Source: Alphaproteobacteria bacterium (GTDB lineage: Bacteria > Pseudomonadota > Alphaproteobacteria > UBA9655). From it: DNA of 64,000 bases. A program made the translations under genes and the position numbers. Below are positions 30,298-35,071 of the stretch, piece by piece. Position 1 is the stretch's first letter. Every line of letters begins with the position of its first letter. The notes beneath the pieces were generated by a model. That model ran no database searches. It had not been told where the DNA came from and worked only from the letters and a program-made list of their open reading frames with translations. The stretch covers positions 1 through 64,000 of the forward strand of contig JAIEPE010000023.1 of assembly GCA_019749915.1 (NCBI GenBank), written 5' to 3'.

Positions 30298-30675
30298 ATG
30301 CTACAGCCAGGCTTATTTGATATGGAAAATCGCTTAGAGAGTCTGTCGAAGTTTGGTGATCCTTTGGAGAAGTTGAAGGAAGTTGTGGACTTCGAGATAT
30401 TTCGAACAGAGATTGAAGACGCATTGGAGTTTAAGGATCGCTCTAAGGGAGGCAGGCCTCCATACGATAGTATCCTTATTTTTAAGATCCTCACGCTCCA
30501 GACTCTTTATACCCTATCGGACGATCAGACCGAATACCAAATTAAGGACCGGTTGAGTTTCATGAGATTTCTGCATTTGAGTCTTTCGAAAAATGTTCCT
30601 GATGCGAAGACTATTTGGCTTTATCGAGAGAGATTGGCTCAAAAGGGTCTTAGAAAAGCTCTTTGCAACCTTTGA
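30298..30675 (+). CDS. IS5-family transposase, N-terminal part
   Basis: 125 residues beginning MLQPGLFDMENRLESLSKFG. The family's DUF772-like N-terminal domain is clear: RSKGGRPPYDSILIFKIL, LYTLSDDQTEYQIKDRLSF, VPDAKTIWLYRERL. The frame leaves homology at AQKG and ends in LRKALCNL, while homology continues one frame on. This is either a mutational frameshift or the two-ORF layout of some IS5 subgroups. Confidence 0.85.
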   Translation: MLQPGLFDMENRLESLSKFGDPLEKLKEVVDFEIFRTEIEDALEFKDRSKGGRPPYDSILIFKILTLQTLYTLSDDQTEYQIKDRLSFMRFLHLSLSKNVPDAKTIWLYRERLAQKGLRKALCNL

Positions 30676-31378
30676 CCAGGCCTTAAAAGATCGAGGGTAT
30701 TTAGCCATGAGTGGCCAGATTATTGATGCGACAATTGTTTCAGCGCCTCGTCAGCGGATGACGAAGAAAGAGAAGGAAACCATTAAAAAAGGAGATATTC
30801 CTGAGGAGTGGAAAGAACATCCTTCAAAATTATCTCAAAAAGATAGAGAAGCCAGATGGGTTGTTAAATACAGCAAGGCTAAGGTTAAAAATGGAGAAAA
30901 AGCCATTGACCTTGCAACATCTTATTTTGGGTATAAAAATCACATTTCCACGGATAAGCGGTATGGGTTTGTACGTAAATTTCATACAAGTGATGCCAGT
31001 CGTTACGATGGTAAAGTCTTACCCCTCCTCTTGGATAAGGAGAATACAGCCAGTAATGTTTGGGGAGATACGGCTTATCGATCGGAGGAAAATGAAACCC
31101 TTTTAAAAGACAATGGTTTTGCCTCTCAACTTCACCGGAAAAAACCAAAGGGAAAGGCAATGCCTCAGCATATCCAAAGGGCGAATGGAAAAAAATCTAA
31201 AGTCCGTTCTAAGGTGGAGCATATTTTTGCTGTTCAGAAAGATAAAATGGCCTTGTTTATCAGAACTATTGACCTCAAAAGAGCCCATGTAAAAATCGGT
31301 CTTGCCAATATCGTCTACAATATGAAAAGACTCATCTTCTGGGAAAACCGAAGGGTTTTACATCTTAGGTATCTCTAA
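30593..31378 (+). CDS. IS5-family transposase, C-terminal catalytic part
   Basis: Homologous sequence begins about base 30662 (VLEKLFATFDQALKDRGYLAMSG); the frame itself is open from an upstream ATG at 30593. The DDE residues are in SGQIIDATIV, VWGDTAYRSEEN and SKVEHIFAVQKDKM, with an R-x-K context in the last. It lies in the +1 frame relative to the N-terminal part, so a full transposase needs a shift near the AAAAGGG at about 30641. Confidence 0.83.
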   Translation: MFLMRRLFGFIERDWLKRVLEKLFATFDQALKDRGYLAMSGQIIDATIVSAPRQRMTKKEKETIKKGDIPEEWKEHPSKLSQKDREARWVVKYSKAKVKNGEKAIDLATSYFGYKNHISTDKRYGFVRKFHTSDASRYDGKVLPLLLDKENTASNVWGDTAYRSEENETLLKDNGFASQLHRKKPKGKAMPQHIQRANGKKSKVRSKVEHIFAVQKDKMALFIRTIDLKRAHVKIGLANIVYNMKRLIFWENRRVLHLRYL

Positions 31379-31714: not shown

Positions 31715-34700
31715 TCATAATTGAATTCCTTGAAGCTTTATTTCAATTTTCTTCCTTTGAGGGGAGTCTTTTGGAAAATGAGTTTTTACTGTTTCCAAAG
31801 CTTGGGACAGATAAAGAACAGATTTATCTTTAAATGTTAGAGATAATTGAGTATTTCCTTCTTTTGCTGCTTGTGTAGATCTCTTTAAGAATAATTCTGC
31901 CAAAATTTCGAGAGTCTTATAGCTTTCTGGGTGTTGAGTTTCTTGGAAAATTTTTAAAACTTTACTCAAAAGAGTCTCTGCAACCTCAAAATGACTCTCT
32001 AAAATATAAGTTTGCCCTAGGTCTCTTAGAATTCGGGCTGTTTCAATATGATCTTTAGCAAATTCTTTTTCATAGATGACCAAACCTTGGTTTAGAAAAT
32101 CTTTAGCTTTTTCATATTGACCTAGATCTCTATTAACGCTTCCTAAAGCAGCTAAAACAGAAGCTGTTCTTATATTTTCTTTTCCACAGGTTTCTTTATG
32201 GACAATGAGAGTTTCCTCAAGAGTAATCTTAGCCTTTTCAAGTTGTCCAAGTTCTCTGTAAATATTACCTAAAAATACAGTGATCCAGCCAATATCTATA
32301 TGATTTTCAGGTAGGTATTGTTTGGCGATGAGAATGGCTTCTTCAAGAAGTAATTTAGCTTTTGCATAATAACCTAACTTTTCATAGGTATTAGCAAGGA
32401 ATGTTGATTGCCAAGCAATATCGAGACGATTTTTTAAAACATGGGTTTTATGAATGAGAAGAGCCTTTTCCTGTAAGCTTTTCGCTTTTTCGTACTCTCC
32501 CAATTCAACGTAGGTATTGCCCAGAAAAGCAGACGTTCGCGCAAGCCAAAAATAGTGAGTAGGAAAATGTTCTTGATAGAGCTTATAGCTTTGTTCGAGA
32601 AAACTTTTAGCTTGTTCATAATTTCCTAGGACTGTACAGGCATCTCCTAAATAGGTTAAAGCCCTTGCAATATGAGGGTGAACTTCAACAAAATACTCTT
32701 TATAAGGCATAATCCTGTTCTCAATTACATTTTGAGCTTCTTCATGATTCCCAAGTTCCATGTAAATAGTCGTGAGATAGGCTAAGGCATTAATAATATG
32801 GAGATGATTAGATGCAGGATTTTTTTCCAGCTCCTCGAAGCTCTTTTCGAGGATTTTCTGCCCTTTAGCGTAATGCCGAAGAGAATAGTACATCGCTCCA
32901 AGCTTTCCTTCTACGAGGCTTCTCATATCATTAGGAAGCAAGTTGTGATGGTGTAAGAATGTTTCATAATGAACAAGCAAGGCTTTTATTGATGAGAGAT
33001 CCTCTTCATCGGTGATAGAAGTCATGTAATCGGTCAAAGTTTGCGAGATTGAGGTAAGAAGCTCATTTCTCTTCTCTAAATCTAACCTCGAGATAAGGTA
33101 AGTTAAAATAATTTCTTGCGTGCTACGGTGAATCGAAAAAGCTGCCATGGAATCAGAAGGAATGGGTGCTTCATTGGTAATAAGAGAATGTTTCTTGAGA
33201 TAATAAACGAAGTTATCAACAACTCCTCCATTTTTATAAGCTTCTAAAAGATTCCTAGGGATATTTTGGGAATCTAATAAACTAATGAGAAATAATAAGC
33301 TTTCAAAGTCTTTATGCGCCTCTATAAGATGTTTTAGGGAAAACGTGATGATATTATATCGTGTTTTTGGATATCCTCCTACTTCTGTTAAAATAGCTTT
33401 TTGGATTGAGTTAAAATCTTTGCCGCTTTCCTTAAGGCGTTCTAAATACTTATCGTAGGAAATATTCACTGATTTTAAGTAGTAGGCAGCTATGGAAATA
33501 TCTAAAGGGAAAGAGGGAAGCTTACTTAGAAATTCCATGGTTTTATCAATTTGATGGGGATCAGATTGGAAAGAATTTTCATGGCTCATAATTTTTGTAA
33601 AAAGAGTCAGACTCTCCTGAGGAGTTAGTTCTCCAACTTGAAGCGTTTGGGATACTGAATAACTATTTTTAATATGATTATCTCTTGTTGTTATAAGCAC
33701 CCGTCCTTTTCCCCAGCTGTTCATGTCATAAGGAAAATATTTTTTTATGGTCGCAAAATTTTCAACGTTATCATAAATAAGAAGCCAATCAGAATAAGAT
33801 ATAAGCTTATCTCGAACAAATTGAAGTAACTTGATTTCTCTTTCAACCGGATCTGTAATCGCTTGTATATCTTCTAAAACCTTTTGTTTACTCCATGCCT
33901 TAGCTAAAGCAACTGCGAGCGTCTCAAAAGAAGAGATAAGACTTTCTATCGTCTCAGCGTTAATTTCCCAGATGGCAGGAGCCACTTGTTGGCTTCCATA
34001 TTGTCGGGCAAGAGTGGTTTTTCCTGAGCCCCCTGGCCCTACAAGAGCAATTATTGGAATATCTTGTTGTTTCTCAAATTTATGACGAATATCAGCAATA
34101 AGCTCTGGGCGATCAAGAAAGGAAGATTTGGCTGGCATCACAAAAGCTGAACGAATGGGACGCTGTTTAAGATTTTGTACTTGCACTTGCTTTTTTTCTA
34201 GTGTGAACCACATTTCCTGCCTCAAGATAAATTGGTGTGTTATGAAATAAACTATACCTACGAGAAAAATTAAAAAAATTCCCTTTTTATTTTTGAGGAA
34301 GGTGATAGCTTTATGAGGTACCTTCTTTTTATGCGCGGCTACCTCTTCTTCAGAATTTATTGGAAACTTTAACTCAAAAAAACCGTGTAACCCCTCATAC
34401 TGTTCTTTAAAATTAGTTATGATTTTACTAAGATTAGCAGCGGGGAGAAGTTTTTGAAGAATTTCAAAAACGGATAAATAATAGCTTGATTGCTCAGAAA
34501 TATCTAAAAAATCTACCTCGAAATGTTCCCTAAAGATACCATTGGAATCTTTTTTACTTAAGAAAAGTCGGAGGTTAGGCTTCTTTTGGTTTAGAGTCTC
34601 TATCTCATCATTTGCCTCTGCGCCTAAAATTTCAGCAGAAATACCAACTTGTTTTAAATGATCTTTAAGATGGCTGATAAATATATCCTTGCCATTTTGA

Positions 34701-35071
34701 TCTTCTCCATAAATGGAGAGACAAACTTGTTTGCCTGTGCGGTTTAATTGTGAGATTTCTTTTAAGCTTTTTTCAAAAGCTGCATAAATGGTTAGATTTG
34801 CATAGTGTTGCTTTATAAAGGGAAACTTATGCGATTTTTCAATAAAATCAATGACTCCCTCACGAGAATTACATCCAAGCTTTATGATAATGTTATGAAT
34901 GTGTGTTAATACAGTGTTAGGAGCGATAGACAAAAGAGAAGCAATCTTGTTGGTGCCTCTCATGTTTAAGAGACAGGAAATAATATCAATTTCTCTGGGA
35001 GTAAAATTAACGTTGTTAATAACGGCTAATTGTCCCACATGCATGTTTTGTAAAAATGAAAGATCGTGCAT
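31715..35071 (-). CDS. membrane-anchored STAND protein: LuxR-type HTH, one TM helix, NB-ARC, TPR
   Basis: 1118 residues. Residues ~23-80 are a LuxR/GerE-type helix-turn-helix (FTPREIDIISCLLNMRGTNK, then IASLLSIAPNTVLTHIHNII). Residues ~85-250 are an unknown charged region. Residues 264-283 are one hydrophobic helix (GIFLIFLVGIVYFITHQFIL) after a lysine-rich stretch. Residues ~335-600 are an NB-ARC ATPase: Walker A VGPGGSGKTTLA, Walker B WLLIYDN, sensor GRVLITTRD. Residues ~700-1110 are TPR/kinesin-light-chain repeats (YLGDACTVLGNYEQAKSFLEQSY). STAND proteins are signal-triggered oligomerising switches. Here the HTH is N-terminal, unlike MalT, and a TM segment separates it from the ATPase. Confidence 0.85.
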   Translation of the reverse strand: MHDLSFLQNMHVGQLAVINNVNFTPREIDIISCLLNMRGTNKIASLLSIAPNTVLTHIHNIIIKLGCNSREGVIDFIEKSHKFPFIKQHYANLTIYAAFEKSLKEISQLNRTGKQVCLSIYGEDQNGKDIFISHLKDHLKQVGISAEILGAEANDEIETLNQKKPNLRLFLSKKDSNGIFREHFEVDFLDISEQSSYYLSVFEILQKLLPAANLSKIITNFKEQYEGLHGFFELKFPINSEEEVAAHKKKVPHKAITFLKNKKGIFLIFLVGIVYFITHQFILRQEMWFTLEKKQVQVQNLKQRPIRSAFVMPAKSSFLDRPELIADIRHKFEKQQDIPIIALVGPGGSGKTTLARQYGSQQVAPAIWEINAETIESLISSFETLAVALAKAWSKQKVLEDIQAITDPVEREIKLLQFVRDKLISYSDWLLIYDNVENFATIKKYFPYDMNSWGKGRVLITTRDNHIKNSYSVSQTLQVGELTPQESLTLFTKIMSHENSFQSDPHQIDKTMEFLSKLPSFPLDISIAAYYLKSVNISYDKYLERLKESGKDFNSIQKAILTEVGGYPKTRYNIITFSLKHLIEAHKDFESLLFLISLLDSQNIPRNLLEAYKNGGVVDNFVYYLKKHSLITNEAPIPSDSMAAFSIHRSTQEIILTYLISRLDLEKRNELLTSISQTLTDYMTSITDEEDLSSIKALLVHYETFLHHHNLLPNDMRSLVEGKLGAMYYSLRHYAKGQKILEKSFEELEKNPASNHLHIINALAYLTTIYMELGNHEEAQNVIENRIMPYKEYFVEVHPHIARALTYLGDACTVLGNYEQAKSFLEQSYKLYQEHFPTHYFWLARTSAFLGNTYVELGEYEKAKSLQEKALLIHKTHVLKNRLDIAWQSTFLANTYEKLGYYAKAKLLLEEAILIAKQYLPENHIDIGWITVFLGNIYRELGQLEKAKITLEETLIVHKETCGKENIRTASVLAALGSVNRDLGQYEKAKDFLNQGLVIYEKEFAKDHIETARILRDLGQTYILESHFEVAETLLSKVLKIFQETQHPESYKTLEILAELFLKRSTQAAKEGNTQLSLTFKDKSVLYLSQALETVKTHFPKDSPQRKKIEIKLQGIQL

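Follow-up and report, generated by a model that had tools for sequence, protein, structure and literature searches.

A candidate single-pass membrane regulator with a LuxR-type helix-turn-helix and a putative periplasmic STAND sensor

Background

STAND NTPases, among them the plant and animal NLRs, MalT and Avs, are regarded as intracellular ATP machines. Could such an ATPase lie beyond the inner membrane and control transcription from there? This question is raised by a gene at positions 31715-35071 (minus strand) of the window, by which we mean the whole alphaproteobacterial stretch of 64,000 nucleotides that was analysed. A preliminary description of this stretch had pointed to a hydrophobic helix between an N-terminal LuxR-type helix-turn-helix (HTH) and an NB-ARC domain, an order of parts that would put the ATPase into an ATP-poor periplasm. 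Our own reading of the sequence, which we hold with moderate confidence, is that the gene encodes a single-pass transmembrane (TM) transcription regulator on the plan of ToxR and CadC, with a LuxR-type HTH and a periplasmic STAND sensor that consists of the NB-ARC domain, a winged helix and tetratricopeptide repeats (TPRs).

Domain order of the protein

The gene is a real open reading frame with an ATG start and encodes 1118 aa; orthologues are found at L045 (92% identical), L047 (90%) and L046 (75%). Pfam models match at residues 22-75 (GerE, that is, LuxR HTH), 327-528 (NB-ARC) and about 770-1090 (several TPR models), and together with the hydrophobicity profile they confirm the order HTH, unknown domain, TM helix, NB-ARC and TPR that had been described before. 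All of these parts are encoded on the minus strand. The HTH region (residues 16-82, 34826..35026), which is supported by Pfam, residue conservation and a low dN/dS, is followed by a variable domain (residues 85-232, 34376..34819) for which low-confidence models suggest a long helix at 84-111 and then alpha/beta structure; residues 84-240 modelled alone with AlphaFold have a pLDDT of 48. Next come a lysine-rich flank (residues 248-263, 34283..34330), the hydrophobic helix (residues 264-283, 34223..34282) and the NB-ARC and winged-helix region (residues 319-699, 32975..34117), which is predicted to be exported. The assignment of this region to the NB-ARC/STAND NTPases is based on a Pfam score of 50.1 bits, with a cut-off of 23.5, and on the presence of both a Walker A motif (GPGGSGKTT, residues 345-353, 34013..34039) and a Walker B region (DWLLIYDN, residues 428-435, 33767..33790). 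There is also an MHD-like FSIHR near residues 645-649. The TPR region with the C-terminus (residues 721-1118, 31718..32911) contains kinesin-light-chain-like repeats and is seen both by Pfam and by AlphaFold, with pLDDT values mostly between 70 and 96 from residue ~770 on. For the whole protein, AlphaFold (run on an alignment of four close sequences) gave a pLDDT of 54, with good TPRs and a poor N-terminal half. Just downstream of the regulator gene, before a polysaccharide cluster, there is a DDE transposase gene (30593-31378).

Family size and distribution

The genome to which the window belongs (2.08 Mb in 73 contigs) contains 12 NB-ARC loci, 11 of them above the Pfam cut-off, and nearly all are ~1100 aa long with an identical domain order. 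Most genomes of the same genus carry between 1 and 16 copies. When the N-terminal 283 residues were used as a query, matches were found in 16 of 39 related genomes, with at most 16 per genome. The complete architecture occurs in 14 of 385 alphaproteobacterial genomes, which span nine GTDB families. Two further members, WPX99920.1 (1080 aa) and WPX99664.1, are encoded on plasmids of Ca. Megaera polyxenophila, a ciliate endosymbiont of the Rickettsiales; the latter is annotated as "HTH and tetratricopeptide repeat-containing protein", and both have a strong helix at the equivalent position with a basic flank before it. A search in Holosporales and in Legionella-like genomes had been suggested earlier. 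The context does fit an intracellular alphaproteobacterial lineage; on the other hand, in a sample of 299 genomes of the phylum that was not targeted at Legionella-like genomes, the architecture was found only in the genome of the window (E <= 1e-20). Some family members may be pseudogenes. Split and probably decaying copies were seen at L013:5991-9329 (L003/L013, contig C44 of the same genome as the window) and at L169:850-4190 (genome G087).

Membrane helix and topology

TM helices and signal peptides were judged by hydrophobicity and charge, and helix, charge and identity counts refer to 57 near-full-length members. In the protein of the window, the sole strongly hydrophobic stretch is GIFLIFLVGIVYFITHQFIL (residues 264-283), and the basic run HKKKVPHKAITFLKNKK precedes it. 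In all 57 members the hydrophobicity, averaged over 19 residues, peaks after the variable domain and before the NB-ARC domain, and by position the helix is also seen in other families; in L191 and L195, whose variable domain is shortened or missing, the TM helix is kept. The mean Kyte-Doolittle value of the helix ranges from 1.40 to 2.78 and is at least 1.6 in 55 members. Note that shuffled proteins of 1100 aa reach an average maximum of 1.8, so that a value of 1.6 is uninformative for a single protein and it is the constant position that counts. The mean pairwise identity of the helix is 0.19, the lowest of all regions, compared with 0.57 for the HTH and 0.51 for NB-ARC. That is, the sequence of the helix drifts freely and still it is hydrophobic in every member, so that the conserved properties are hydrophobicity and place.

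The charges on the two sides of the helix are biased. The 15 residues on the N-terminal side contain on average 4.4 K+R and those on the C-terminal side 2.7; the N-terminal flank has more in 47 members, the two flanks are equal in 10, and it has fewer in none. The earlier expectation that the lysine-rich flank predicts an inside N-terminus thus holds for the family. By the positive-inside rule, we infer from this bias that the HTH is cytoplasmic and that the NB-ARC-TPR part lies outside the inner membrane. The cysteine content gives a mixed picture: 1.69% in the N-terminal part and 0.62% in the C-terminal part, the latter divided into 0.21% for NB-ARC and 0.96% for the TPRs, with 0.78% in the cytosolic enzymes of the window. 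We dropped cysteine depletion as decisive evidence for the topology, because the TPRs alone are not depleted.

Constraint on the helix-turn-helix

The profile of the HTH matches GerE, CviR, FixJ and NarL. Among 20 diverse members, P51, T53 and K64 are invariant and H57, R26 and E27 nearly so; in the same set the motif residues of NB-ARC are invariant (G345, G348, G350, K351 and T352 in Walker A, D434 and N435 in the Walker B region). In comparison with the two closest orthologues, L045 and L047, dN/dS is 0.02-0.05 for the HTH, 0.14-0.16 for NB-ARC and ~0.1 for the TPRs, 0.39-0.51 for the TM region, and the flank of the helix evolves fastest, with 0.25-0.51. No diversifying selection on the TPRs was found among the orthologues; rather, they are under purifying selection. 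As the HTH is the most tightly constrained part of the protein, it most likely works. A working HTH needs DNA and would therefore be cytoplasmic, and with a single spanning helix the NB-ARC domain would then be periplasmic. The preliminary description had named homologues without the helix, or an HTH that lacks its DNA-contact residues across the family, as observations against its reading. All of the 57 members have the helix, and no part of the protein is better conserved than the HTH. A conserved palindrome was sought upstream of the gene; ~150 bp are conserved among the orthologues, and we could see no convincing site in them.

Homologues without a helix-turn-helix

Is the ATPase truly exported? 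The homologues that contain the NB-ARC-TPR module without the HTH, which come from other families of the class, argue that it is. Two of them, L170 and L171 of genome G126, have signal-peptide-like starts (MCDSKIILSIISLITTNFLFA... in L170, MNRFVLLGAVSLIALTSLSG... in L171; L170 and L171 begin MCDSKIILSIISLITTNFLFASNN... and MNRFVLLGAVSLIALTSLSGTPS..., respectively), score 369 and 328 bits with the NB-ARC profile of the family, and align to the protein of the window from directly after its TM helix. No HTH is encoded in the in-frame region upstream of either gene. Likewise, a signal anchor or TM helix without a fused HTH is seen in L180:5224-6153 (307 bits) and in L168:340-3270. Genome G126 is one contig of 1,391,311 bp with ~40% GC in the loci that were read; for Ca. 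Bodocaedibacter vickermanii, a genome of 1.39 Mb with 40.6% GC is described, whose genes with a secretion signal include two that encode TPRs (PMC8163844).

A second, more distant group of NB-ARC proteins (~700-800 aa) in genomes with the ATP/ADP translocase Tlc has hydrophobic N-terminal leaders (L174:2231-4540, L139 on contig C69 of G028, and L177:3742-6096); the leaders of L177 and L174 belong to NB-ARC proteins of genomes G005 and G028. In NB-ARC proteins of larger, Tlc-negative genomes we found no TM helix before Walker A, nor in the presumably cytosolic fxsT/TPR proteins of Streptomyces, Acaryochloris and Prosthecochloris. One protein speaks against the idea that ATP parasites always export their NB-ARC proteins. 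Neochlamydia sp. S13, a chlamydial bacterium related to amoeba symbionts, encodes on a plasmid an NB-ARC protein with neither a TM helix nor a signal peptide (L205:2874-5633).

Possible ATP supply

The preliminary description had noted a paradox, namely an ATPase in a periplasm where ATP is scarce. One half of it stands, as the signal-peptide homologues argue for export. The other half, the objection that there is no ATP, is weakened by the fact that 13 of the 14 genomes with the architecture encode Tlc (PF03219, E < 1e-80), compared with 31 of the 371 others (Fisher P 1e-12, uncorrected for the kinship between genomes). Similarly, in the first sample, made of the genomes that match the N-terminal 283 residues, 15 of 16 have Tlc. 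G001 (83% complete) and G318 (76% complete) have no Tlc match; Tlc is also common in genomes without the architecture. The carriers of the family are apparently intracellular bacteria that take ATP from their hosts. Before Tlc can take it up, ATP has to pass through the periplasm, and we infer that a periplasmic NTPase there could have a substrate.

Neighbouring genes

A CdiI-like immunity gene (PF07262; 35258..35668, plus strand) lies head-to-head with the regulator, 186 bp from its start, and is a possible target or passenger of it. A 71% identical copy (L110:6071-6379) adjoins a different family member, and both are apparently orphan CdiI-like genes.

In the genus, the one recurrent neighbour of the family is u176, a small genus-specific gene family of 176-230 aa with 2-9 copies per genome (for example, L045:10513-11040, L113:1836-2429, L114:2846-3424 and 50+ further copies). 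In 11 genomes, nine u176 copies stand head-to-head with a family gene at a distance of no more than 1.6 kb, where 0.14 are expected, and additional pairs are found in L113-L115 and L125. Regulators and their targets are commonly arranged in this way. The copy in the window has no adjacent u176; the CdiI-like gene faces the regulator instead. Searches with u176 gave no match in Pfam or PHROGs, none that was informative in NCBIfam and none that was credible in the PDB; a by-eye likeness to LuxI or GNAT enzymes found no support in these searches and was rejected. One u176 copy is in two frames and probably decaying (L105:6520-7150). Family members are also paired together, with two tandem copies at L109 and divergent pairs at L122 and L130.

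Near family members, u176 is also the first gene of a conjugative tra operon (L045, L047, L110, L117 and L125). The integrative or conjugative element in question (L045:10513-15359, also in L047, L117, L125 and L110, the latter being contig C72 of the same genome as the window) contains u176, two Rep-like genes, SSB, TraA-like, TraL and TraE, with family members alongside. Another gene of the L045 locus (L045:1231-5295) encodes 1354 aa with a signal-peptide-like start and, by eye, an OTU-protease-like motif (GIPKDGDCGFSALGF) near the C-terminus; it has no Pfam match.

Comparison with known regulators

ToxR and CadC combine a cytoplasmic DNA-binding domain, one TM helix and a periplasmic sensor. 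The protein matches this plan by sequence in having one helix between the DNA-binding and sensor parts, present in 57 of 57 members, and a positive-inside bias for an inside N-terminus; its sensor would be periplasmic as well. However, ToxR and CadC have an OmpR-type winged HTH and not a GerE/LuxR HTH, and here there is an extra domain between HTH and helix and a STAND NTPase with TPRs as the sensor. Because of the HTH type, the protein is no member of the ToxR family. MalT, of the LAL group, shares the STAND NTPase, a TPR-like sensor and a LuxR-type HTH in one chain, and its HTH is matched with E 1e-6; in MalT the HTH is C-terminal and the protein cytoplasmic (PMC10427625). LAL proteins are soluble with the HTH at the C-terminus, whereas here the HTH is at 22-75 and a TM helix at 264-283.

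The SARP regulator AfsR, a soluble protein with an OmpR-type domain and a BTAD, likewise has an N-terminal DNA-binding domain, NB-ARC and C-terminal TPRs; the profile match to it is weak, and the AfsR chains 8k60 and 8jke are also matched. It lacks the TM helix, and Pfam found neither an OmpR-type DNA-binding domain nor a BTAD in the protein of the window, which has a GerE HTH and an unmatched domain instead. The closest curated NB-ARC-TPR model is FxsT (the FxSxx-COOH TPR protein, NF040586; best stretch residues 313-923), but with 225.2 bits the protein stays under the curated cut-off of 300 and is not FxsT; the fxsT proteins L207 and L208 have neither HTH nor TM helix. The closest earlier hint that we found is the target of DGR 3 in Thiohalocapsa PB-PSB1, a NACHT protein with a STAND domain that is predicted to be periplasmic (PMC10907252). 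Unlike our protein, it has a C-type lectin domain with no HTH mentioned, and it comes from a multicellular bacterium. In our searches of an open-access collection, with most subscription journals outside its coverage, we found no description of this family or of an HTH inside combined with a STAND domain outside.

Alternative explanations

A cytosolic STAND protein that is tethered to the membrane by a hairpin or surface-lying helix, with HTH, NB-ARC and TPRs using cellular ATP as in MalT and AfsR, is rather unlikely in our view. MalT, the best-studied STAND regulator, is cytoplasmic (PMC10427625), and the TPRs are as rich in cysteine as one would expect of cytosolic proteins; but length and charge bias of the helix suit a single spanning helix, and in the homologues with N-terminal signal peptides a hairpin would be neither needed nor natural. 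The earlier suggestions that the helix is not a true TM helix or that the topology is reversed now look less likely. Alternatively, the exported STAND part could sense and an intramembrane cleavage free an HTH fragment, so that cutting rather than clustering activates it. An HTH, one TM helix and a large exported domain make a layout that can be cut, and the flank of the helix evolves fastest; a conserved cleavage motif is absent, though, and the TM sequence drifts freely. We consider this improbable, and since it retains the periplasmic STAND domain, it is a variant of the reading that we prefer.

The exported module might instead be displayed on or secreted into the host, the HTH being self-regulatory or a relic. 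The kinesin-light-chain-like TPRs, the signal-peptide homologues, which could be secreted, and the expansion typical of effector families would fit; the strongly constrained HTH is no relic, however, and the TM anchor keeps the sensor at the inner membrane, which makes this very improbable. Lowest of all we rate a defence-type STAND, put forward in the preliminary description, in which the TPRs detect proteins of phages or rival elements, with the N-terminal part as effector. Here the resemblance is to Avs and bacterial NLRs, in NB-ARC plus repeats and in copy number, and certain copies adjoin a conjugative element. But what stands at the N-terminus is a conserved DNA-binding HTH and no toxic effector, PADLOC matched no known defence STAND model (a generic TPR model had E 6e-10, and nothing else was better than E 0.007), neither 50,697 phage records nor the viral contigs contain a relative, the TPRs are under purifying selection among orthologues, and an exported sensor would be blind to phage proteins in the cell. 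A phage or mobile-virus origin was rejected on the same phage and viral collections.

Implications

The best reading is that the sensor is in the periplasm, which the signal-peptide homologues support and on which the cysteine content is mixed. Architecture, charge bias and these homologues also favour the membrane-bound sensor-regulator that the preliminary description had proposed. In such a regulator, the TPRs would bind a periplasmic protein or other ligand and NB-ARC would swap ADP for ATP, which might be host ATP that passes through the periplasm before Tlc takes it up. The exported parts would then oligomerise, as in STAND proteins, the TM helices would bring the HTH domains together, and the clustered HTH would bind promoters, for example that of the head-to-head gene.

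A wider idea is, at present, tentative and in our estimate somewhat doubtful. In ATP-parasitic intracellular bacteria, STAND (NLR-like) ATPases may have been transferred to the far side of the inner membrane, where host ATP would power them as TM one-component receptors. They would monitor the host compartment and switch genes of the bacterium in response, with 1-16 variants per genome. If this is true, they would be the first STAND-built one-component membrane receptors among those that we found in the literature, and the periplasm of ATP-parasitic symbionts would be an ATP-rich signalling compartment. The 11-12 paralogues in one small genome would then possibly be a sensory system in bacteria in which little is known of how the host is sensed.
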